From the NCBI RefSeq assembly GCF_039543825.1, contig NZ_BAABKM010000002.1, positions 466,133-530,132 of the forward strand: DNA of 64,000 nucleotides, read 5' to 3'. The DNA is from Nocardioides conyzicola. GTDB taxonomy: Bacteria; Actinomycetota; Actinomycetes; Propionibacteriales; Nocardioidaceae. Below are positions 38,944 through 64,000 of the stretch, one piece after another. The translations under genes were made by a program, and so were the position numbers. Every line of letters begins with the position of its first letter. Position 1 is the first letter of the stretch. The notes under the pieces were generated by a model, which saw only the letters and a list, made by a program, of their open reading frames with translations, was not told the origin of the DNA and ran no database searches.

Positions 38944-38962
38944 TTCAAGAGGGCGGAACGAG

Positions 38963-39330
38963 TGGAGCTGCGGGGAATCGAACCCCGGTCCTCGAGCGCC
39001 GATCCAGGTCTTCTCCGGGTGCAGTCCGTGATGTCGCTTTTCTCGGCCTCGGGGCTCGCACGGACACGTCCCCGACAGGCTCAGTCACGGAATAGTCCCG
39101 CTCACCCTCCGCGACACGGAGTGAGCAGCAAGTCTCCTAGATGACGTCAGGACCCGGGACGGAGACGGGTGCCCGGACTGACGCTTCGATCACTGCTCAG
39201 GCAGCGAGAGCGAAGGAACTGCGATTGGTGTTGGCAGTTATAGGTTTCCAACGATCGTTTACGAGATGACGTTGGCTTCTCGACCCGCTTCCCCTGGAAC
39301 TAACGTCCCAAGTCGAAACCGATCAGCCCC
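38963..39330 (-). ncRNA. ssrA: Transfer-messenger RNA (tmRNA)
   Basis: RNA of 368 bases that rescues stalled ribosomes with SmpB. The 5' end GGGGCTGATCGGTTTCGAC and the 3' end GGTTCGATTCCCCGCAGCTCCA form the tRNA-like domain; the acceptor stem GGGGCTG/CAGCTCC contains the conserved G3-U70 pair for alanine charging. CCA is not encoded. The tag reading frame (39235 down to 39197) starts at GCC and encodes ANTNRSSFALAA then TGA, with the FALAA degron ending. smpB lies 1.3 kb upstream on the same strand. Confidence 0.95.
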
Positions 39331-52084: not shown

Positions 52085-53020
52085 TCAGGGAGCGGTCAGG
52101 GAGAGGCCCACGACGCCGGGCCAGAAGGCGAACAGGACGGTCACCGGGAGGACCAGGAAGACGACGGGGACCATCATCAGGACCTCCTTGCGGGCGGCGG
52201 TCTCGATCAGGTCGCGCCGGCCCGCCTCGCGCACGTCGTCGGCCTGGGCATGCAGCACGTCGGCCAACGGGGTGCCCCGCTCGACCGCGACCGCGATGCC
52301 CTGAGCGAACCGGGACACGATGGGCAGCCCGCTGCTCGCGGCCATCGCGTCGAAGGCGCTGCCGACCGGCTCTCCGGTGCGTACGGCGGACAGCACCCGC
52401 CCGAGCTCGCGGGACAGCTCACCGCCGCTGCGGCGTACGACACGGTCCAACGCCATCACCGGACTCTCACCCGCGGCGACCGACAGCGCCAGCAGCTCGG
52501 CGATCGTCGGGAACTCCGCCAGGATCAGCTGCTCGCGACGGCGGACCTGGCCGGTGAGGTGGGTGTCGCGGGCCAGCACGCCCGCCACGAACGCGATCGC
52601 GCACGCCAGCATCCAGAGCACGACGGAGCCGGGATGCGTGAGCATCCGGAGCAGAGCCACGGCGGCCGTGGCGGCGAAGGCGACCAGGCCCCACACCACC
52701 TGCTCGATCCGGAACTCGTGCACCGTCTTGTCGATCGCCGCCCGCTCCAGGCGCCGGCGGACCGACGTCACCCCGCCGAGGACCCGCTCGACGGCCTCGG
52801 CCGCGGAGCGCAGCATCGGCCCGAAGACCCCGACCGCGGCTGACGTCGGCGCGGGCGCGGAGCGGCGTACGGCGTCGTCGAGCAGCGGGAGGTCCCGGAC
52901 GTAGGGCAGCACCCGGACCGCCAGCTGCGGGCGCCGGATCGCCCGGACCCGCACGGCGACGAGGAGCAGCCCGGCCGCAGCCGTCGCCCCGAGCAACGCG
53001 CCCCACATCGCCGGGCTCAC
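52085..53020 (-). CDS. tadC: TadC-like type II secretion F-domain protein
   Basis: Inner-membrane platform protein of 311 residues. N-terminal hydrophobic segment, a cytosolic T2SSF domain (ILAEFPTIAELLALSVAAGES, VMALDRVVRRSGGELSRELGRVL, MAASSGLPIVSRFAQGIAVAVERGTPLADVLHAQA) and C-terminal TMs. The GTG start overlaps the tadB stop (GTGA). Confidence 0.88.
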   Translation of the reverse strand: MSPAMWGALLGATAAAGLLLVAVRVRAIRRPQLAVRVLPYVRDLPLLDDAVRRSAPAPTSAAVGVFGPMLRSAAEAVERVLGGVTSVRRRLERAAIDKTVHEFRIEQVVWGLVAFAATAAVALLRMLTHPGSVVLWMLACAIAFVAGVLARDTHLTGQVRRREQLILAEFPTIAELLALSVAAGESPVMALDRVVRRSGGELSRELGRVLSAVRTGEPVGSAFDAMAASSGLPIVSRFAQGIAVAVERGTPLADVLHAQADDVREAGRRDLIETAARKEVLMMVPVVFLVLPVTVLFAFWPGVVGLSLTAP

Positions 53021-53871
53021 GACATGATCCGGCGTTCGACGGGCAGACGACCGATGCGCATCATCAGCCGGTAGGCGACCAGGCACAGCGCGGCCCCGAC
53101 CGCGAGCACGAAGACCCCGACCGGCGACGCGTAGCGGTGGATGACGTCGGACTGGAAGGACATCAGCAGCAGCACCAGCCACGGCGACGCGACCGCCAGC
53201 CGCGCACCGTTGACGGTCCAGGCCTGGCGGGCCTCCATCTCCGAGCGGGTGCGCGCGTCCTCGCGGAGGTACGTCGAGAGGCTCCGCAGCAGGCGTCCGA
53301 GCTCGCCGCCGCCGACCTCCCGGGCGATCCGCAGGCCCTCCACGACACGATCGCCGACCGGGTCCGCGAGCCGGTCCTTGAGCCGGTCGAGCGACTCCCC
53401 GAACCGTCCGGTGACCTGGTAGTCCAGCGCGAACTGGTCGAAGGCCGTCCGCAGCGGTGCCGGCCCGCGCACCGCGAGTCCCGCGAGCGCGTCGGGCAGC
53501 GACATGCCGGCGCGGACGGCGGAGGTCAGGTTGTCGACCGCCTCAGGCCACACCTCCGCGAGCTCCTGCTGCCGGCGGCGAGCACGCCCCGACACCACGG
53601 CCACCGGCAGGTAGGCGCCCATCGCACCGAAGGCGATCGCCACCGGCGGCGTCCCCGACACGACCTGCAACGCCAGCGCCGTGATCACGCCGCAGACCAC
53701 GCAGAGCAGCAGGAAGCCCGTCGCCGACACCTGCCCCATGCCGGCCCGCGCGAGCAGGGCCGTCGTACGACGGGATCGGACCGCGTCGGCGCGCGGACGA
53801 CGCGGCAGGAAGAACGCGCTCCAGACGAGCAGCAGCCCGATGCCGACCCCGAGTCCGACGAGCGCGCCCAT
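53017..53871 (-). CDS. tadB: TadB-like type II secretion F-domain protein
   Basis: Second platform protein of 284 residues. It has N-terminal TMs, then EVWPEAVDNLTSAVRAGMSLPDALAGLA, GRFGESLDRLKDRLADPVGDRVVEGLRIAREVGGGELGRLL and C-terminal TMs. The start at 53871 (MGALVGLG) comes 2 bases after the stop of the truncated cpaF. Because the cpaF 5' part and any promoter lie beyond the inserted element, expression of this and the downstream tad genes is probably lost or depends on the element. Confidence 0.88.
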   Translation of the reverse strand: MGALVGLGVGIGLLLVWSAFFLPRRPRADAVRSRRTTALLARAGMGQVSATGFLLLCVVCGVITALALQVVSGTPPVAIAFGAMGAYLPVAVVSGRARRRQQELAEVWPEAVDNLTSAVRAGMSLPDALAGLAVRGPAPLRTAFDQFALDYQVTGRFGESLDRLKDRLADPVGDRVVEGLRIAREVGGGELGRLLRSLSTYLREDARTRSEMEARQAWTVNGARLAVASPWLVLLLMSFQSDVIHRYASPVGVFVLAVGAALCLVAYRLMMRIGRLPVERRIMS

Positions 53872-53873
53872 CG

Positions 53874-54221
53874 CTACCCTCCGGCCACGATCCGGTGCAC
53901 GTCGATCCCGATCCGCTCGAAGCGCTCGAGGTGCGGCGGCATCCCCCCGGCCCGGCGGAGGTCCCCGCCGCGTCGCTCGAAGACCGGCTCCGTCTCGATC
54001 ACATCCTGCTCGACACGACCCGGGACGCCGACGATCTCGTTGACGCGGCGTACGCCGCGCTCGTCGATCCCCAGGTGCACGACCATGTCGACCGACGACG
54101 CGACCGTGGGCACGACGAAGCGGGCCGAGATGTTCTCGCCCGCCAGCAGCGGCAGCGTGCACATCTTCACCAGCGCCTCGCGGGCGCTGTTGGCGTGGAT
54201 GGTGCACATGCCCGGCAGCCC
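53874..54221 (-). pseudogene. cpaF: 3' fragment of cpaF (TadA ATPase), cut by the integrated element
   Basis: Only ~115 codons of a gene usually ~400 long. The fragment starts at GLPGMCTIHANSAREALVKM (the Walker B-distal region with the HANS motif) and continues through LLAGENISARFVVPTVASSVD to the normal C-terminus RIVAGG. Upstream of about 54221 the sequence stops resembling the family and leads into the integrase region. The N-terminal part, with Walker A, is not in the window and should lie at the other end of the element. Confidence 0.85.
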
Positions 54222-54304: not shown

Positions 54305-55783
54305 ATGAGTGCAACCGCTCGCCCGCTTCGCGTAATCGGCTACGTCCGACTGTCGGACTACCGCGCCGACGACGCCTCAACCTCGCCGCAGCGTCAGCGC
54401 GAACAGATCACGGCGACGTGCCTCGCTCGCGGCTGGCAACTCGTCGACATCATTGCGGATCTCGATGTTTCCGGGTCAGATCGAGGCCTTCGCCTTCAAC
54501 GCCCTGGCCTTGTGCAGATCCGTGCCCGGTATGCCGAGGCAGACGTCTTGCTCTTCACGAAACTCGACCGGCTCGCCCGCAACGTCACCGACTTCCGAGC
54601 GATCGCAGAAGACGCCGAGGCTAACGGCGTTGCGCTCGTGTCGATCGACGACAACATCGACCTCACCTCGGCATCCGGGAAGTTCTTCGCGACGATCCTG
54701 GCAGCGTTTGCCGAGATGGAGGCCGCAACCATTCGCGAGCGTGTGCTGAAGGGAAACGCGAAGGCTCGCGAACTCGGCCGCTTCATGGGAGGCGTCCCGC
54801 CCTACGGCTATCGAGCCGTCCCGCACCCGAGCGGCGAAGGCCGGGCGCTTGCGATCGACCCCGCCGAGGCGGCAGTCGTCCGCGAACTCGCCGCGGCGGT
54901 CCTGGGAGGCGCGACGGTCTACCGAGCCACTCGCGAACTCAACGAGCGCGGCGTCCTCTCCAAGACCGGCAAAGAATGGTCCACCCAAGCCGTCCGGCAA
55001 GTCCTTACGAGCCCGCGCATCGTCGGGAGGCGGACCCATGGAGGAGAGGTCGTTTCCGGAGCAAACGGTCTCCCCCTGCAAGTCGACGACCCGGTCCTGA
55101 GTGTCGAGACCTGGCACCGAGTCCGGGCGAGGCTCGCGCCGACCCCAGCGTCCTCACGTCGGTCGCCCAACCCGGCTCGGCTGCTCTCCGGACTCGTCAC
55201 GTGCTCCCGCTGCAACGGGCGTATGAACCCCGGCCCGACGGGAGGCGATGGAAGACTCTCTTACCGCTGCTCCACCGCCTCGAAGGGTCGCGAGTGCTCG
55301 GGCGTCTCAGTTCGATGCGAGCCGCTAGAAGCGTGGCTCGTGGAGACATTCCTCGATCGCTTCGGCCCGTTGCCCCTAACTCACGTCATCGAGATTGCGC
55401 CCGAGGAGCCTGCCGCGCTCGTTGAGGTCCGGGCCGCGATGAACGCTGCCGCGAACGCCATGATCGTGAAAGACGCGAACGTCCCAGCCCTCGTCGACCG
55501 CCTGGCTGCCCTGAAGGGCGAGGAGGCCCGTCTGGAAGCGGCACCACGTGAGGATCGTTTCGAGGTGATCGAAGAGGGCACGTTCGCCGAGGTGTGGCAC
55601 CGCGACGAAGACGTAGAGCGCCGCCGTAATCTCCTGGCTGATGCCGTGCAGGAGATCTCGATCTCGCCCGGTAAGGCTGGCCGTCGGCCCTTCAATCCCG
55701 AGCGCGTCGAGGTCCGTTGGGCTGAGGGCTCATCGCTGTCTGACTACGGCACGGGCGAGAGTCGGGGCCCCGCGATCGCCTGA
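54305..55783 (+). CDS. Large serine recombinase (integrase)
   Basis: Site-specific recombinase of 492 residues. The resolvase domain (about 8-155) has the nucleophile Ser17 in YVRLSDYR, then ADVLLFTKLDRLARNVTDF and the E-helix AAFAEMEAATIRERV. The recombinase domain (about 160-280) contains GGVPPYGYRAV and NERGVLSKTGKEWS. A zinc ribbon CSRCNGRMNPG... YRCS...REC (about 300-335) and a coiled-coil C-terminus complete the usual layout. The ATG has GAGGAG 6 bases upstream. It integrated the element into cpaF. No excisionase (RDF) is recognised. Confidence 0.95.
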   Translation: MSATARPLRVIGYVRLSDYRADDASTSPQRQREQITATCLARGWQLVDIIADLDVSGSDRGLRLQRPGLVQIRARYAEADVLLFTKLDRLARNVTDFRAIAEDAEANGVALVSIDDNIDLTSASGKFFATILAAFAEMEAATIRERVLKGNAKARELGRFMGGVPPYGYRAVPHPSGEGRALAIDPAEAAVVRELAAAVLGGATVYRATRELNERGVLSKTGKEWSTQAVRQVLTSPRIVGRRTHGGEVVSGANGLPLQVDDPVLSVETWHRVRARLAPTPASSRRSPNPARLLSGLVTCSRCNGRMNPGPTGGDGRLSYRCSTASKGRECSGVSVRCEPLEAWLVETFLDRFGPLPLTHVIEIAPEEPAALVEVRAAMNAAANAMIVKDANVPALVDRLAALKGEEARLEAAPREDRFEVIEEGTFAEVWHRDEDVERRRNLLADAVQEISISPGKAGRRPFNPERVEVRWAEGSSLSDYGTGESRGPAIA

Positions 55784-56020: not shown

Positions 56021-56155
56021 GCGAGCCTGCTCCGCTCGCCCGTGAGCAGCCGGGACCCCTGGGGCGGACTTCCGTCCAGTCCCCGGTGCGGCCGTTCTTG
56101 GCGGTCCGGTCACGCCGGGGCGAGACCGCCAACGCGACCGCCTAAGGAGACCGCC

Positions 56156-57391
56156 ATGCCCCCACACCTGAGAATCGATGCGGACGCCCTCGCCCGGCAC
56201 GTCATCCGACACGGACGCGCCGCGAAGGGCCTTCGGCCCGTCGGCTTCCGCCTCGACTCCGAGGGAATCAATCTCGGCGTGACGCTGCCCGGGCCGGACT
56301 GGCTCGCCGTGATGCTCACGCTCGGCGACCTCGACGCCTTCCGCGACGGGGCACGCCTCGTCGTCCGGCCTCACGGCCACGATGCGGAGCCCGAGGCACT
56401 CGACCTCCCCGTCGTCGCTGGGAGCCTCCGGGAGACGGTGCGGGCACTACCTGAGCGTGACGATGCCGGGGACGCCTACCGCGACCTCCGGCTCGCCGCT
56501 GGCACTCCCTCGGCGCGCTTCGGCGAGTACGCCCTCGACGTCGGGCGTGCCTACGTCCAGACGCTTCCGGCGCTCCCGAAGCGGCCGAAGGCCCCGAGAC
56601 AGCGTCTCAGGACGAGGACGCCCCTCGAACGGCAGCGCGCCGGGCGGGTGCGCCGCAGCGCGGACGAGCGAGCGTCTGCCGAGTGGGGCCTGTCCGCTTT
56701 CATCGCTATTGAGGCTCCCGAGCCCCACGCACGACTATCGGGCTCAGCGGTCTTCGACTTCGTAGCCGACCTCCTGGCCTACGCGGTCGAGAGGCACGAC
56801 GAGACGGTCGTCCATCCCGACCCGAGGGACGCGGCGCTCTACCGCAGCGGCCTGGCGGAGCGCCGGGCGGCGTGGGACGAGATCCGGGTCGACGAGTGGG
56901 AGGACCCGCCTCCTGGCCGGCCACGTCCGGTGTCCCGTCGGGTCCTCTTCGAGGTCGCCGAGGACATTGGGGCGTTCAGGGTGACCCGGCCCAGAGGGTC
57001 CGTGGCCCTGACCGTCATCGAAGCGCCTGGCCGCGTGCTCTCGGCGTTCGTAACGCACTGCCTTCGGCGGGCCGGGGTCGCGGACCCGGTCGAGTACGCG
57101 GCGGCGACAGAGGAGCGGGTCTGCGCACTCGCTCCGAAGTCACAGCCCGAGTCACTCGATCGGCGCGTGGTGGCCCTCCCGTGGCAGGTCGTCTATGCGG
57201 TGGCTCTCAACGAGGACGGTGTCCGCGCGTTCGGTCGAATGGCGCAGGCCCACATTGAGCGCCACCCCGAGGAGCGAGACATCATCATCGTGGTCGCACG
57301 CACGCTCCGCGACGGAGACCCCGACGGGCTCGTCGCTCAGATGCGGTCGCGGTGCGCTGAGGCGCTCAGGGCCGAACAGGCTTCGGCGTGA
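56156..57391 (+). CDS. Uncharacterised protein, first of the element's rightward gene run
   Basis: I do not recognise this 411-residue protein. It is soluble, Arg/Asp/Ala-rich, with a basic linker (QRLRTRTPLERQRAGRVRRS near 155-175) between two parts. The second part contains VVALPWQVVYAVALNEDGVRAF. AAGGAG lies 7 bases before the ATG. It overlaps the next gene by four bases. The position directly after the integrase would suit a replication or regulatory protein, but no helix-turn-helix, primase or relaxase motif is visible. Confidence 0.75.
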   Translation: MPPHLRIDADALARHVIRHGRAAKGLRPVGFRLDSEGINLGVTLPGPDWLAVMLTLGDLDAFRDGARLVVRPHGHDAEPEALDLPVVAGSLRETVRALPERDDAGDAYRDLRLAAGTPSARFGEYALDVGRAYVQTLPALPKRPKAPRQRLRTRTPLERQRAGRVRRSADERASAEWGLSAFIAIEAPEPHARLSGSAVFDFVADLLAYAVERHDETVVHPDPRDAALYRSGLAERRAAWDEIRVDEWEDPPPGRPRPVSRRVLFEVAEDIGAFRVTRPRGSVALTVIEAPGRVLSAFVTHCLRRAGVADPVEYAAATEERVCALAPKSQPESLDRRVVALPWQVVYAVALNEDGVRAFGRMAQAHIERHPEERDIIIVVARTLRDGDPDGLVAQMRSRCAEALRAEQASA

Positions 57392-57939
57392 GCGAAGTCG
57401 ACGAGGTCCCGCTCTGCCCGATGTGCGGGCTCGCTCTGCCGCCATACTCGGGTCGAGGACGTCCTCGCGTCGTCCACTCGGGATCGTGCGCGCGAACCCG
57501 CGCCGCCGAGACCGACGAGAACCAACGCGAGGCCCGATACCGGCAGACCCTGCGCGACGCGGCAGTCCGTGCTCCGCTCATGGGGCCCGAGCACGTCGCG
57601 ACGGACGACGAGCAAGTAGGGACGATGCAACGCCTCGCCTCGGCGGGCTTCGCCCCGCTCGCCGACGATCCACGAGAGGACGCACCTCGACACGAACGTG
57701 CGCGCTCTCAACATCGTCGTGCAGCGCTAGCGAGCCTTCAGACCACATTCGCCGACAAGGCCCGGCAGCGCTCCGCTCCGGCGTGTCATGGGTGCCTAGC
57801 GTTCGACTACCTCCTTGTGACGACCGTGACCGCAGAGAGCCTCATCCGAGGACGAGCCGAAGCACAGCAAGACACCCGGCTACGCCGTCACCTCGCACAG
57901 GACGACGTTGCTGCCGTCATGGCGCTGAGCCCCTCATGA
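57388..57939 (+). CDS. Uncharacterised protein with an N-terminal zinc-knuckle-like motif
   Basis: Protein of 183 residues, GTG start in a GTGA overlap with the previous gene. The N-terminus CPMCGLALPPYSGRGRPRVVHSGSC has a C-x-x-C pair and a later Cys, resembling small phage or plasmid zinc-finger proteins with GRPR-type basic turns. A second Cys pair (CHGC) lies near 137-140. The rest is helical and charged. Function unknown. Confidence 0.7.
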   Translation: MSEVDEVPLCPMCGLALPPYSGRGRPRVVHSGSCARTRAAETDENQREARYRQTLRDAAVRAPLMGPEHVATDDEQVGTMQRLASAGFAPLADDPREDAPRHERARSQHRRAALASLQTTFADKARQRSAPACHGCLAFDYLLVTTVTAESLIRGRAEAQQDTRLRRHLAQDDVAAVMALSPS

Positions 57940-58003
57940 CTTGATCCGTGCAGAGGTAGTAGAGGCACTGCGCCTCGTCATGTGTGGGGTCCTTTCGGGC
58001 GAC

Positions 58004-58064
58004 AAGCCCCCGGTCCCGGCTCCAGCGCTCCGCCCAAGAGTGCTCGCGTCGGTGCCGGGGGCTT
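58004..58064 (+). terminator. Probable terminator in the element
   Basis: AAGCCCCCGG at 58004-58013 and CCGGGGGCTT at 58055-58064, a perfect 10-bp stem with a 41-base GC-rich loop that may fold further. It ends the first two-gene unit and precedes the strong ribosome site at 58097. The remainder of the 171-base gap (57940-58110) shows no gene. Confidence 0.6.
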
Positions 58065-58110
58065 CTCGTCGGCCTCTAAACGAACGTCACAGCTAGAAAG
58101 GAGGTGCCAC

Positions 58111-58305
58111 GTGCACCTGATCCTCTGCGCCGCGTGCGGCACTCGCTTCGACGCCGTGCGCTGCGACGCTGCCGCGTGCAGCGACCGTTGCCGCGCCCGT
58201 CTCTCCCGCGAGCGCCGCGCAACCGCCGAGGACGCCGAGCGCGAGCGCGCCGCGTCGCTCCTATCGAGCCTCGCCGCCGTCGCGCGACTGCTCCCGGCTG
58301 ACTGA
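58111..58305 (+). CDS. Small zinc-finger-like protein
   Basis: Protein of 64 residues. The GTG start is set by AAAGGAGGTG five bases upstream, the best ribosome site in the element. CAACGTRF, then CDAAACSDRCRARLSRER gives a C-x-x-C ... C-x-x-x-C pattern found in small actinobacterial and phage zinc proteins. The C-terminus is an amphipathic helix. It may bind nucleic acid. Confidence 0.65.
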   Translation: MHLILCAACGTRFDAVRCDAAACSDRCRARLSRERRATAEDAERERAASLLSSLAAVARLLPAD

Positions 58306-58332
58306 GCCCACCCACCACCGAAGGCAGACACG

Positions 58333-58659
58333 ATGACTGACGACACCCGCGCCGCGCTCCGGCGTGCAATCACAGAAGCCGAGCAGGCACTCGACGCGCT
58401 GACCGCTCGACCTCTCGCCGACCAGATGGAAGCAGCCGCAGAGGTCTACGCCGCACGGCGTCGCCTAGGGACCACCGACGCCGCTCGCCTGCGCCACGAA
58501 GCGCAGGCGCGCTCCCAGAGCGCCGCCGACGCCCTCTCCGCGCTCTTCGCCCCCGACGACCACGCCCTGGTCGACGCCCTGGTCGACGACGACGACGAGA
58601 GCACCCCGACCCCCGACACCGCCGCGCTCGGCGACCCACTCGCCGCCCTGCTCGGCTGA
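58333..58659 (+). CDS. Uncharacterised helical acidic protein
   Basis: Protein of 108 residues, 27 bases after the zinc-finger gene. The first 75 residues are Ala/Glu/Arg-rich amphipathic helix; the tail is strongly acidic (DDDDE). No motif is recognised. Codon use fits its neighbours, supporting a real gene. Confidence 0.65.
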   Translation: MTDDTRAALRRAITEAEQALDALTARPLADQMEAAAEVYAARRRLGTTDAARLRHEAQARSQSAADALSALFAPDDHALVDALVDDDDESTPTPDTAALGDPLAALLG

Positions 58660-58694
58660 CCCCACCCACAGACCCGTAAGGAGCACCACTCCAC

Positions 58695-59498
58695 ATGAGC
58701 ACCGAAACCGCCAACCTGGCGACCCTGACCGCCGCCGCCTCCCAGTTCGGCGTCGCGTTCCCGAAGCCCGTCGCCGCCCTGCTCTCGTTCGAGCACAACC
58801 TCCCGAACCTCGGGAAGGTGCAGGACGAGGCCGTGGCCGAACTCGCTTCTGCGTTCGGGTCAACCACGTACACGAGGACGCTCGACAACGTCCTCGAACG
58901 GCTTGCCCGCGCCGAGGCCGGGAGCAAGATCCGCCGCTCCGCCGATGCTGCACTCGTGCGCGCCCGGTGGACCTCCGTCATGCTCCACAGCGAGGACATC
59001 ATCAAGGCGTTCCGCGCGGCGCTGTCCGACGACCTCGGCAGGCTGAACACGAACGCGGCGGACGTGCCCTCGACCTCGACCGCGACCTCTTCCCTTCAGC
59101 AGCGGGCGTACGCCGCACGGTTCGCGGCGAGCAACGCGGCCGAGCGACTGGTCTCGGCCACGCGGGCACTCGCGCCGCTCTACGGGATCGGCACCTCAGG
59201 TGGTCCGGGCATCGAGACCCCGACTGTCCAGCACCGCATGATGCTGACCGCGCGCCCGGAGAACCTCGACCGTAACGCCGGACTCGCTCTCGCTCGCGGT
59301 CTGGCAGGCGCTCGACTCGTGAGCGTGGGCGGCGACCCCACAGCGACCGACGCACTCTGGTTCGCAATCGCTGCCGACCTCGGCGCGACGTTCCGACTCG
59401 TCACTCCCGACGAGCACCGAGACACCCTGGCGCTGCTGCGCGACGCCGTCCGCTCACCGCGACTCGGCGAGGTCCTGCCTCCCACCCTCGTTCTCTGA
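58695..59498 (+). CDS. Uncharacterised protein
   Basis: I do not recognise this 267-residue protein. It is helical in the first two thirds (LSFEHNLPNLGKVQDEAVAEL, TLDNVLERLARAEAGSKIRRSADAAL) and mixed after that (ARLVSVGGDPTATDALWFAIAADLGA). No signal peptide or TM is present. It is 35 bases after the previous gene and probably in the same unit. AAGGAGC lies upstream. The 135 bases beyond (59499-59633) hold only G/C runs that may form a terminator-like stem. Confidence 0.7.
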   Translation: MSTETANLATLTAAASQFGVAFPKPVAALLSFEHNLPNLGKVQDEAVAELASAFGSTTYTRTLDNVLERLARAEAGSKIRRSADAALVRARWTSVMLHSEDIIKAFRAALSDDLGRLNTNAADVPSTSTATSSLQQRAYAARFAASNAAERLVSATRALAPLYGIGTSGGPGIETPTVQHRMMLTARPENLDRNAGLALARGLAGARLVSVGGDPTATDALWFAIAADLGATFRLVTPDEHRDTLALLRDAVRSPRLGEVLPPTLVL

Positions 59499-59633: not shown

Positions 59634-60161
59634 TCACGTGGGAAAGATGATCCGGACTCGCCCTCTCCGAGGGTTGTCCAGCAGCACGACTTGTTCCCAC
59701 TCGTCGGCCCCTCGTGTAGCGACGAGACGAACACGGAAGTCGGGCAACTTCTCGCGAGCACCGATAGCAAGCACGAAGCGAGCCCGCTCGCCCATGCGGA
59801 CCGCGCCCAACCCGGCCGCGTGGTCGGCCCAGTCGGAACCGACCCGAGCGACCGGGTAGCGGATGCCGTCGTCCGGCGTCGGCGGATGGACTGAGATTGA
59901 GTCGAGGTCGATCGGGCCGTCGTTGCGGACGTTGTAGATCGCGGAGTCGTCCGTCTCGCCGACCTTGGCTTCGATCTCGACGACCAGCGTCGGCCGGTTT
60001 GCACGCCGTTCGGCACTGGTTGCGGCCTCGGCTTCACGCTCGGCGGCGTGCGCCGTCCGGCGCGCGTATGCCGCACTAGCGACCGAAACGACAAGAGCAA
60101 GAGCGGCGACTGAGAGAGCAGCGATCTCCATGCGCAGGACGGTATCGCCGAGGTCCGACAT
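59634..60161 (-). CDS. Membrane-anchored protein of unknown function
   Basis: Protein of 175 residues. One N-terminal hydrophobic helix (AALSVAALALVVSVASAAYA) leads into a basic/Ala-rich coiled segment (RRTAHAAEREAEAATSAERR), followed by a β-rich domain (TLVVEIEAKVG, NVRNDGPIDLDSISV, RVGSDWADHAAGL). This layout is common in actinobacterial hypothetical proteins. The opposite strand orientation from the preceding genes sets it apart from the integrase unit; the NACHT gene reads towards it. Confidence 0.7.
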   Translation of the reverse strand: MSDLGDTVLRMEIAALSVAALALVVSVASAAYARRTAHAAEREAEAATSAERRANRPTLVVEIEAKVGETDDSAIYNVRNDGPIDLDSISVHPPTPDDGIRYPVARVGSDWADHAAGLGAVRMGERARFVLAIGAREKLPDFRVRLVATRGADEWEQVVLLDNPRRGRVRIIFPT

Positions 60162-60503: not shown

Positions 60504-63500
60504 TCACTCTTGGAATGACCAGTCCTCTGACGTTGAGACTGCAGTAAGCGTCGCCGCGTCGTAGTTGCCCATAACAATCTCATGCGCCCGAATGACGGCC
60601 TCCCGCGGATAATCTCCGGGCCCACTAACAATTCGTCCCGCCAACTTCAGCGACAAGTCGATTTCTCTGCAGTGCTCACTCACACCCTGAGGCATGGCAT
60701 AATCCGCGCGCTGACCATTACGGACACGCTTTAGCCAGTTGCTCTTAATGACGTCACTCGCGGTTCTTGGCGGCACCTTGCGGAGTTCCGCGGCTGCCTC
60801 CTGTCGCTCCTTCCATTGAGTTAGCGCCGAGAAGTTGCGCTTGCGGATTTCACTCGAAATCTCGTGAAGCGGTGGACGAAACGCGGCAACCACCAACCAA
60901 CACAACCGGTCGCTCGCACTGCTCAATGGCGGGACGTAGCCCTTCCTGTCTCGGCGCGGCTCAGCGTCACGGCGCATCGATTGAACCACTGCATGAAGGC
61001 GGTGGAACGCTTCTTCGTCCAATCGCTCTACTGCGCCCTCTAGATCGCTCAGAAGCGCCTCATAGACCGAAGGCGACGTCCACGACAGGACCAGAGCCGA
61101 CCAAAAGAGGACCCTTCTATTGTCCTCGCCTGCGTCTTCTAGCGCCGACCTCCACCATTCCACGGAGCCGCGCTTCAACCTCGCATAACGGGCACGCTGC
61201 GCTAGTGAGTGCCTGTCGTCGAACATCGCATCCGCGTCTTTGACCGAAATCGACGTCCGCAAGCCTGCCGCTCGGAGCGCCAAGATGTAAGCAGACCAGC
61301 ATTCCCCACCAAACATCTCGCGTACGAGATCTCCCATAAACGCAACTTGATCCCAATTGGCAGTGTAGTGCTGTGAGATGAATGGATTCTCGTTACTCAC
61401 TACCAAGTTCACGAAGTCGGGAACCTTCGACGCTGGCTCAGCGAACTTTAGGAGATCGACACTCAATTCCGTCATCAACGCTTGGTCTCGATGAAGATAG
61501 ATCGTCATAACGCCAGCAGGGAACACGCTCATCGCATCTGCAAACACACCAAGGGTGCTAAACGAATGCAGTCCCGCGATGAATCGCCCTTCGAGCGCAT
61601 GGGTGACAACTTCCTGTGCGGCATCCTCGTCTCCCGCAACTCTGTGGCCGAGATGATTGACCACTAGAATCAACCGCTCACTCAGATTCCCATAACTCGG
61701 TGAGTCTTCATGGACGAGTTTCAGGACTCGACTCAATGAGAGTTTCTGGGCTCCCCCACTTTGGATCATCCGAGAGAACTTCACCGTACGAACACGGCCA
61801 GATGTGCCTTTTAGAGATTTCAAGAAGCGGTCCAGCAGTTCATTGCCCCCGTTGGCGGCCAGTAGTCGGCAATAGCCGACACTGTCGAGTTCAATTTCTC
61901 GATTCTCAAGACGGTCAAAGATCAGGTCGCGAAGTGTGTCTCGGCCGCAATCCTCGTCTAGCGCCAAAGGCTCGCTCTCGCCGTAGACCTGGCGAACAAG
62001 TAGGTGCAGCCCAGCCTCATCACACGCCGCTTGGATCAACTCATCCTGCCAAGACTTCTTGTTCGCAAAGACCCAGTCAGATAGAAGCGCAAACGACACC
62101 TCGCGCCCGTGCAGCGATCGTGCTGGATCCGAATCGCCGATGAGGTCACGCAGGCTGAGCACGAGGCTTCCAATTTCTCCAGGCTCGTATGAACCGGCGT
62201 AGAAGCGAGTCACATTGAGCCAAAATGGATTCGCAGCGAGAGCCTCGAATCTCTGAGCGCGGTCACCCTTTGGCTTTTGATAGCGATAGGTCCCGACAGG
62301 AGAGGTCTCGTAAAGGTGCCGCGCACAGAAGAATTCTCGCAGCGGCTGAACTTCGAACTCATACAAACCACTCACGCGTTGCACCAAAACGAAGATGCGT
62401 TCTAGGCCGCCGCCGAATAGATCATCCGCGAGTTCCTCGGGCTGCTTAGCCTCGACGAGGTACTCCCGGGCCATCTCTTGTAAGTCTTCCTTGGATATGG
62501 ACCCTCTCGAACCAGCACTCTCGGCCTGGCTCTGTAGCACCCACGCAAGATGCTGGATGAATTCGACCAAGACGGCCTGATGCTTCTTAACTGCGACATC
62601 CTTTTCCGACTCGCGAATCAGGAAGAGTTCAAGATAGCGGCGGTATAGGTCAGTTCTCTGATCCGGAAGTGAATATCCCACCTGATGGATCAGACTCAGC
62701 AAGATCGTCAGCTGCATCGCATTACGCGTAAGTTCGACGATGTGCGGAAGTTCCATCTTGTCTTTGAGGATTCCCAGCACTTCGGCACTCTCGCGAGCGT
62801 CCAACGTTCGTGCTTTGACCCATTTGTTGGAATAATCCAGGACGAGCGACTTATCAATGCTCGCGAGGTCAATCGTCACGAATCCTGACTCGTCGAAATT
62901 TGCTTTTCGACCGAAGATCGATGGGCGGCTAGTGACGACGACCTGGACGTCCAATCCCATATGCTCGTAACGGAGAATTGAGCGCTCCACCACCGCCACC
63001 AGGGCGCGCCGCTGTTCCAGGTCGGCAACTTCGTCGAGCCCGTCCAGGAAGATCAATGCCGGGCTACTCCCGAGAACGTCTAGCAAATCATCGACGGAGA
63101 ACGTTTGTTTCCCACTCTGCTTGTGAACGAGATCGCTCAGGAATTCGTCCAGACTCGACGAATCGTCGGTGTCGGAGCCTATGAATGCTGCCAGGTCGCG
63201 GAGATCGACCTTGAATGGCAGCCTAAACCCGCTCTGTACATATTTCGTCGGGATCGAGGAACTGAATTCACCCATCCCCAGAAACGCGGCCCGGTGAACC
63301 TGGCATACGAACTGCGCGAGTGTCGACTTCCCTTGGCCCGGAGCACCTTCGAGAACGATACGGCTAATTTCGCCTTGAGCGATGTCGCTAAGCAGAAACT
63401 CTGCCGCTCCCATATTGGTTCGATAGCGAAATTCGCCGATGGCATTGCCCCCGGACACATGGAACACTTCGTCCGGTACGGCTCGCATGTGACGCATCAG

Positions 63501-64000
63501 TCGATTCATCAATCGATCCGATTCCTTGCCGAACTTCCGGCGAATCTGCTTCACCATCGCCTCATTGAAGCGGACTGGTATATCGATGAACAGGTCGGCC
63601 AGAGAATTCGATAGGCTGACCTGCTTGAATTTGACCTTGGAATCGATGCTGTATTGTTCGCCAACGAACGCCCTGATGGCGCGCATCTGGCGGTCGCGTT
63701 GCGGGCCAAGCATTGTTGCCAATGCGAGTTCGATGCCATCCTGGCCCGTCAACAGTTCTGGGAACTTGAATCGCAGGCTCTGAGGCGACCGGTCTGTGCG
63801 ACGGTCGAGGTCGTCCCGCCACAGGCAGATGGCGGGACACTGAACGTTGTCAGTGAGCCACTGTTGGACTCGATCGATCCGGCCGACCCCGTCGTGGGCA
63901 GTCCCTCGAGCATTCGTCACCATGACGTAGCGCTTCGCGCCAGCCTCAACTAGGCGCTTGATCTTCGGAAGTTCCTTTTCCAGGGCCTCGATCATCCAAT
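60504..64000 (-). CDS. NACHT-type STAND NTPase, putative anti-phage defence protein (N-terminus off the right edge)
   Basis: At least 1163 residues visible; the frame is still open at the edge. Positions are counted from the first visible Met. The NACHT domain is near 213-375: Walker A GAPGQGKST (217-225), Walker B LIFLDGLDE with the double-acid DGLDEV (about 315-322), and sensor VVVTSRP (352-358). A winged-helix region and LYEFEVQPLREFFCARHL near 565 follow, as in other NACHT proteins. A ~580-residue helical C-terminus is the likely sensor. Residues 1-65 (RYVMVTNARGTAHDGVGRIDR, then CLWRDDLDRR) resemble the end of an Mrr/PD-(D/E)XK-like nuclease domain whose catalytic half would lie outside the window. 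GC is far lower than its surroundings. Confidence 0.8.
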   Translation of the reverse strand, partial: WMIEALEKELPKIKRLVEAGAKRYVMVTNARGTAHDGVGRIDRVQQWLTDNVQCPAICLWRDDLDRRTDRSPQSLRFKFPELLTGQDGIELALATMLGPQRDRQMRAIRAFVGEQYSIDSKVKFKQVSLSNSLADLFIDIPVRFNEAMVKQIRRKFGKESDRLMNRLMRHMRAVPDEVFHVSGGNAIGEFRYRTNMGAAEFLLSDIAQGEISRIVLEGAPGQGKSTLAQFVCQVHRAAFLGMGEFSSSIPTKYVQSGFRLPFKVDLRDLAAFIGSDTDDSSSLDEFLSDLVHKQSGKQTFSVDDLLDVLGSSPALIFLDGLDEVADLEQRRALVAVVERSILRYEHMGLDVQVVVTSRPSIFGRKANFDESGFVTIDLASIDKSLVLDYSNKWVKARTLDARESAEVLGILKDKMELPHIVELTRNAMQLTILLSLIHQVGYSLPDQRTDLYRRYLELFLIRESEKDVAVKKHQAVLVEFIQHLAWVLQSQAESAGSRGSISKEDLQEMAREYLVEAKQPEELADDLFGGGLERIFVLVQRVSGLYEFEVQPLREFFCARHLYETSPVGTYRYQKPKGDRAQRFEALAANPFWLNVTRFYAGSYEPGEIGSLVLSLRDLIGDSDPARSLHGREVSFALLSDWVFANKKSWQDELIQAACDEAGLHLLVRQVYGESEPLALDEDCGRDTLRDLIFDRLENREIELDSVGYCRLLAANGGNELLDRFLKSLKGTSGRVRTVKFSRMIQSGGAQKLSLSRVLKLVHEDSPSYGNLSERLILVVNHLGHRVAGDEDAAQEVVTHALEGRFIAGLHSFSTLGVFADAMSVFPAGVMTIYLHRDQALMTELSVDLLKFAEPASKVPDFVNLVVSNENPFISQHYTANWDQVAFMGDLVREMFGGECWSAYILALRAAGLRTSISVKDADAMFDDRHSLAQRARYARLKRGSVEWWRSALEDAGEDNRRVLFWSALVLSWTSPSVYEALLSDLEGAVERLDEEAFHRLHAVVQSMRRDAEPRRDRKGYVPPLSSASDRLCWLVVAAFRPPLHEISSEIRKRNFSALTQWKERQEAAAELRKVPPRTASDVIKSNWLKRVRNGQRADYAMPQGVSEHCREIDLSLKLAGRIVSGPGDYPREAVIRAHEIVMGNYDAATLTAVSTSEDWSFQE

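Follow-up and report, generated by a model that had tools for sequence, protein, structure and literature searches.

Bacterial AVAST (Avs) proteins place an effector domain ahead of a STAND NTPase and a sensor. The closest characterized layout to the protein described here is that of bNACHT25 and bNACHT32, which PMC12169576 presents as nuclease–NACHT–helical proteins of clade 6 with anti-phage activity. A second body of work concerns mobile elements that disrupt competence genes and are argued thereby to block their own removal (Croucher 2016; PMC4774983), and the tad genes, which are needed for transformation (DNA uptake) in Micrococcus luteus (PMC4322843), a statement repeated in PMC6668835 and PMC12019362. 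Here we analyze a stretch of 64,000 nucleotides (hereafter the window) from the 4.96-Mb genome of Nocardioides conyzicola (contig NZ_BAABKM010000002.1, positions 466,133 to 530,132), in which an element of ~10.1 kb and of the serine-integrase type lies within the Tad-pilus motor gene tadA. Sequence comparisons make it likely that the product of the gene at 64193–60504 is a one-protein nuclease–NACHT (bNACHT, NLR-like) immune sensor, carried as cargo by this element in codons 306–307 of tadA.

The Cargo Gene and Its Domains

Within the window the cargo gene appears as a minus-strand frame of 1164 codons (60504–63998) that is open through the right window edge; the 193 5′ bases that lie outside the window (64001–64193) were supplied by the flanking sequence of the same genome. 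The GTG start at 64193 is in register with the starts of homologs, and the frame 60504–64193 is no chance open reading frame (ORF), since at least 787 homologs were found at E ≤ 0.001 (among 7994 candidates scored). The gene and its regions are as follows:

64193–60504, minus strand: nuclease–NACHT–helical gene, 1229 aa, GTG start at 64193 (window part 60504..64000)
residues ~1–165: predicted PD-(D/E)XK-type nuclease
residues ~165–660: NACHT module, NLR-like fold
after residue ~660: all-alpha C-terminus, ~570 residues

The protein contains a NACHT P-loop NTPase module of the bNACHT/NLR-like kind. Pfam NPHP3_N matches above its cut-off (8.3e-8), at E ≤ 0.1 both NPHP3_N and NACHT match every member of a 30-protein alignment that contains this protein, and the Walker A motif G283-x-P-G-Q-G-K-S-T291, the Walker B motif D384-G-L-D-E388 and the motif T421-x-R-P424 are invariant across the 30-row alignment. 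The N-terminal motif P32...D37GGRD41...Q52xK54 likewise shows no variation in that alignment and reaches at least 90% conservation in a second one of 53 rows; together with a match to a restriction-endonuclease part and the exchange of this region for an HNH domain in relatives, it marks the predicted effector domain as a putative nuclease of the PD-(D/E)XK type. The first-pass annotation had proposed a NACHT domain and a long helical C-terminus, both of which are borne out, and had glimpsed what looked like the end of a restriction-endonuclease-like effector; it had named a missing effector as a reason for doubt, and the putative nuclease came into view once the gene was extended rightward and completed to 1229 aa.

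The GC content of 0.545–0.57 over 61–64 kb, against about 0.70 around it, and the patchy presence of the family (see below) suggest a horizontal origin of the gene.

The Integrated Element and the Interrupted tadA

The element carries its integrase at one end and lies between two tadA halves with a shared core:

54214..54218, minus strand: left junction core CTGCC, tadA codons 306–307
64301–64305, beyond the window: right core CTGCC, paired with the left core
54305..55783, plus strand: large serine recombinase (Pfam Resolvase 5e-33, Recombinase 9.1e-14, zinc-ribbon 1.8e-10; PHROG integrase 2e-100)
53874..54209, minus strand: tadA 3′ piece (ORF), with homology to the junction at ~54218

A gap of 87 bp separates the recombinase from that core. 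The core itself is 5 bp long and weak on its own, and its position was set by the points at which the homology to tadA stops on either side. Against an intact 420-aa TadA of the same genus, the piece to the right of the element aligns as far as residue 307, from where the left piece continues to residue 417; the T2SSE/TadA profile is matched over positions 4–236 on the right (2.5e-28) and, weakly, over 240–273 on the left (0.058). Genome G044 has its tadA break in the same codon, with CTGCCGGG. The placement of the gene as mobile-element cargo, proposed in the first-pass annotation, thus stands, with defined element ends, a serine recombinase and a split tadA; the insertion in tadA and the repeated use of tadA as a landing gene had been missed because they lay beyond the view of the window.

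The nuclease–NACHT gene adjoins the right junction in the same direction as tadA. A promoter-like site for it was looked for and not found, and its orientation suggests that read-through from the tad promoter may occur. The remaining features of the element and its surroundings are:

56042..57391, plus strand: ORF of 449 aa, no Pfam or PHROG family
57388..57939, plus strand: ORF of 183 aa, no Pfam or PHROG family
58695..59498, plus strand: ORF of 267 aa, DUF1627 only (0.022, below cut-off), no PHROG family
59634..60161, minus strand: small putative ORF of 175 aa, no Pfam or PHROG family
52085..53182, minus strand: TadC-like (T2SSF) gene, a member of the interrupted tad operon and the control gene below

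The three ORFs in 56042–59498 may be replication or transfer genes. A tmRNA gene (38962–39330, minus strand) lies ~15 kb from the element.

Homologs and Modularity of the Cargo Protein

The first-pass annotation had noted that homologs fixed in chromosomes would speak against a defense role; the family is instead patchy, occurring at 1e-40 in 12 of 215 genomes of the genus (this one included), and the top-scoring of the others shares 34% identity over residues 3–735. Full-length relatives at 45% identity occur in Cellulomonas and Pseudarthrobacter, environmental proteins are up to 61% identical, at least 322 relatives were confirmed in the species-genome collection, and others lie in viral contigs (6) and on 33 plasmid records, with query coverage below 80% in all of the latter. 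In genome G022, a stretch of ~135 kb between tadA pieces (G022:C1, ~883.7–1018.5 kb; L171, L172), with a serine integrase at its start, holds a second NACHT protein of the family, with 35% identity over residues 262–769.

Among 80 loci from the species-genome collection and 13 further loci, 81 ORFs of at least 800 aa match the NACHT segment. The effector segment is matched in 68 of these, two carry an HNH domain and 11 are distant; the C-terminal segment is also matched in 38 of the 68 effector-bearing relatives and is without a match at 1e-5 in the other 30. This is the pattern expected of a protein that, judged by its sequence, would combine an effector, a switch and a sensor. The two HNH carriers (L167, L168) come from genome G081 and from the Arthrobacter plasmid pAL1 and match HNH_2 and PADLOC HNH effector models; these HNH–NACHT versions, one of them on a plasmid, are useful natural domain swaps.

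Several results weigh against the reading of the protein as a nuclease–NACHT immune sensor. The Pfam NACHT match (1.6e-5, 25.2 bits) falls slightly below its cut-off of 26.7; the N-terminus matches no Pfam-named nuclease, and one of 30 members touches Mrr_cat (0.089). Searched against PADLOC, the window part of the protein found no family at E 10 and the full-length protein found partial matches only, the restriction-endonuclease part among them. Deposited phage records held no homolog at 1e-5, the family occurs in one of the 30 tadA inserts scanned (see below), and the missing C-terminal match in 30 of 68 relatives may reflect divergence as well as replacement of that region.

Split tadA Genes across the Genus

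The genus was sampled with 215 Nocardioides genomes, one per species, of which 198 matched tadA at a cut-off of 1e-70 and 17 did not. A full-length tadA row was found in 139, and the 59 remaining matched genomes were examined individually, with row classes assigned by hand from match tables and the resulting partition (139 + 36 + 9 + 3 + 11 + 17 = 215) verified by script. In 36 genomes complementary tadA pieces share a contig, with about 4 to 227 kb between them, and in nine they are inverted or on different contigs, giving 45 genomes with a split tadA (45/215, or 45/198 with a match), a count that includes G077, which is degenerate, and G162, in which some residues are missing. Three genomes with adjacent pieces that look frameshifted (G041, G177, and G197) were not counted as split, and 11 were excluded as fragmentary, remnant-only or paralog-only (G049, G055, G095, G157, G173, G175, G183, G187, G188, G206, and G219); the 198 matches include at least four paralog-only genomes (G049, G095, G206, and G219).

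The breaks fall at about 11 positions, near codons 100, 147, 170, 216–222, 245–249, 280, 297, 307, 320, 333, and 341. One tadA is broken twice in five genomes (G048, G089, G145, G190, and G216), and G004 has an intact tadA together with a second, divergent copy that is broken twice. In G140:C1 the tadA pieces are ~1.33 Mb from each other and in opposite orientation, the arrangement that a chromosomal inversion by recombination at tadA would leave. Among 120 listed relatives of a TadA from this genus, those with an organism name belong to Nocardioides or Nocardioidaceae, which supports Nocardioides as the genus.

Splits also occur outside the genus. In an order-level sample of 391 genomes, 202 matched tadA at a cut-off of 1e-90, including 44 from other genera of the same family and 38 and 8 from two further families (f3 and f4). 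Ten low-scoring genomes were picked by hand and re-examined, some of similar score (e.g., G314) falling outside that pick; clear splits were found in five genomes of the same family (G316, G343, G362, G392, and G426) and in G244 of family f3 (near codon 305), tadA was near full length in G290, G353, and G485, and G428 was ambiguous. None of the eight f4 matches in this sample scored low.

The operon neighbor tadC was used as a control in the same 215 genomes, with a match cut-off of 1e-8 and with coverage seen for the best rows only. It was matched in 206 genomes, 189 of them reaching 1e-95, and these 189 include 44 of the 45 genomes with a split tadA. After exclusion of 11 genomes with very weak tadC matches (1e-18 or worse), six were intermediate (G049, G189, G202, G203, G216, and G223, four of them assembled in over 200 contigs), so that tadC looks damaged in at most six of 195 genomes; the difference from tadA (45/198 vs 6/195) gives p = 2e-9 in a Fisher test that ignores relatedness. 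As a control, tadC is suited to the question of dispensability but, being the less conserved of the two genes, not to that of target conservation.

Integrases and Cargo of the tadA Inserts

The scan covered 30 inserts, each of up to 20 kb and chosen by size, in 27 genomes, together with parts of the G022 insert. Integrases were sought with a serine profile and a tyrosine query built from nine insert ORFs, whose own matches are therefore by construction; the integrase of N. conyzicola has a separate Pfam match, and those outside the Pfam checks are assigned by the profile. Every insert has an integrase ORF, 25 of them serine and five tyrosine (L038, L135, L139, L141, and L145). The profile and query search found 29 of the 30, and the Phage_integrase ORF of L135, 105 bp from its junction, came from Pfam, which also confirms all 10 integrase ORFs checked (from nine of the 30 inserts and the G022 insert). 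The integrase ORF overlaps tadA homology or lies within 122 bp of it in 27 inserts and lies 746–865 bp away in three (L134, L143, and L148).

In comparisons confined to the best three matches per query, integrase identity tracks the insertion site in 15 of the 25 serine integrases, with 64–88% identity among six at codons 245–247, 59–76% among four at 101, 43–64% among three at 216, and 83% for two at 170. The other 10 fall outside these site groups: the integrases of G128, G089, and G145 (248–249) are 36–37% alike, no higher than between sites, those of G211 (218) and G216 (222) lie outside the 216 group, and for N. conyzicola and G044 (306–308) neither appears among the best three matches of the other. 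The integrase of L133 and that of N. conyzicola (54305–55783) are not close relatives, and both sit at tadA codons 306–308, possibly a convergent choice of target. Codons 101 and 170 are used by serine as well as tyrosine integrases; the cores of the tyrosine inserts measure 13 bp (L038), 11 (L139), 16 (L141), 4 (L135), and 2 (L145).

Ten cargo ORFs from seven inserts were chosen by eye, which illustrates cargo and gives no estimate of frequency. They match a C5-methylase with Eco29kI (L034), a C5-methylase with MvaI/BcnI (L138), GmrSD with an AAA_21 ATPase (L140), TIR (L040), an N6-methylase with a specificity domain (L039), NOV_C (L133), and Beta protein (L143). Four ORFs selected for their phage-like character have matches among head, portal or tape-measure families:

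L039: 6031–7113
L138: 8441–11242
L141: 7621–9363
L142: 6820–10077

Some of the tadA inserts of ~11–18 kb with phage head, portal-capsid or tape-measure genes look like phage satellites or reduced prophages.

Explanations for the Protein and for Its Address

The nuclease–NACHT protein is very probably, from its domain content, an immune effector-sensor of a known kind that is new as a member, and most likely a one-gene abortive-infection protein like the nuclease-type bNACHTs. Its C-terminal helical region would bind or monitor a cue of the invader, ATP-loaded NACHT modules would then assemble, and the N-terminal nucleases of the assembly would cleave DNA and bring the infected cell to a halt. 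Some bacterial STAND proteins are regulators, and the protein might accordingly be a NACHT regulator or scaffold without an immune role; the conserved nuclease residues, the swapping of nucleases, and the patchy presence and probable horizontal origin of the gene make this very unlikely. It is less improbable, though still unlikely, that the protein defends the element and not the cell, with rival plasmids, satellites or newly arriving integrative elements as its targets: its carrier is small and occupies a gene for which many elements compete, a single tadA is broken twice in five genomes, and relatives occur on plasmids (the 33 records with partial coverage). Against this stands the anti-phage action documented for the closest characterized layout in PMC12169576, and an immune sensor that protects the cell is the reading we retain.

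The insertion itself would cut away the TadA residues beyond the Walker B region (at the position where we take that motif to lie) and would leave the Tad pilus motor off for as long as the element is integrated. Since tad genes serve DNA uptake in M. luteus, silencing tadA may be a way for elements to avoid being removed by transformation. We tentatively hypothesize that tadA is a battleground gene, in which several serine and tyrosine integrase lineages independently target conserved codons because silencing stops the transformation that would cure them, and whose slots are stocked with immune genes, such that one event shuts DNA entry and installs defense. Competence silencing fits the splits if Tad is a DNA-uptake pilus here, as it may be by analogy with M. 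luteus, and the ComEC family is present in all 25 genomes searched, N. conyzicola included. It is also quite possible that tadA is a harmless landing gene whose conserved codons give a reliable attachment site, with no gain from silencing the pilus; the breaks fall in TadA stretches conserved up to the junction, and two serine integrases that are not closely related use codons 306–308. However, the integrases of most elements are said, in PMC4774983, to favor noncoding, host-sparing targets, and the operon partner tadC is hardly disrupted, a contrast that does not settle the matter, as less conserved genes are poorer targets. The defense-type cargo of several inserts would also suit a scheme in which cells without the pilus escape phages that depend on it and the insertion acts as a first layer of defense. 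This seems rather doubtful, as we know of no Tad-dependent phage of Nocardioides; among listed papers on Tad pili in phage infection and transformation, judged by title, none dealt with such phages.

The split pattern of tadA is the part that a specialist would not expect, and open-license literature, judged in part by title, yielded no description of elements integrating into tadA or cpaF. The nuclease–NACHT gene adds an actinobacterial member of the nuclease type with a long, uncharacterized C-terminus, and its address matters more than the gene: roughly one in five of the genus genomes sampled has a split tadA, the breaks lie at many different codons, and tadC mostly stays whole. If Tad is a DNA-uptake pilus, these splits are a natural, replicated test of mobile elements fighting transformation, and the tadA slots are a simple place to find defense genes and integrases with known targets.

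Comparison with Known Systems

The predicted order of effector, STAND NTPase and sensor is the same as in Avs proteins; no Avs-named model was among the PADLOC matches of the protein, in a library whose Avs content was not checked. The PADLOC HNH effectors (SAVED-HNH and others) are matched by the HNH domain of two homologs, whereas the gene at 60504..64193 has a putative PD-(D/E)XK-type domain instead. With bNACHT25 and bNACHT32 the protein shares a one-gene order of PD-(D/E)XK nuclease, NACHT and helical C-terminal domain, as laid out in PMC12169576, where a nuclease residue is required for their protection; it differs in its C-terminal region of ~570 residues and in its host and element, the likeness being one of layout description only. 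The first-pass term "undescribed" was therefore too strong, given that nuclease–NACHT–helical anti-phage proteins of this layout have been published. At the level of the insertion, the nearest parallels, from PMC4774983, are the elements in comK, comYC, comFA, and comM, which are likewise integrase-borne and split a DNA-uptake gene; the locus described here, whose role in uptake is putative, differs in that the target is the Tad motor ATPase of actinobacteria, which several integrase lineages enter at some 11 positions.
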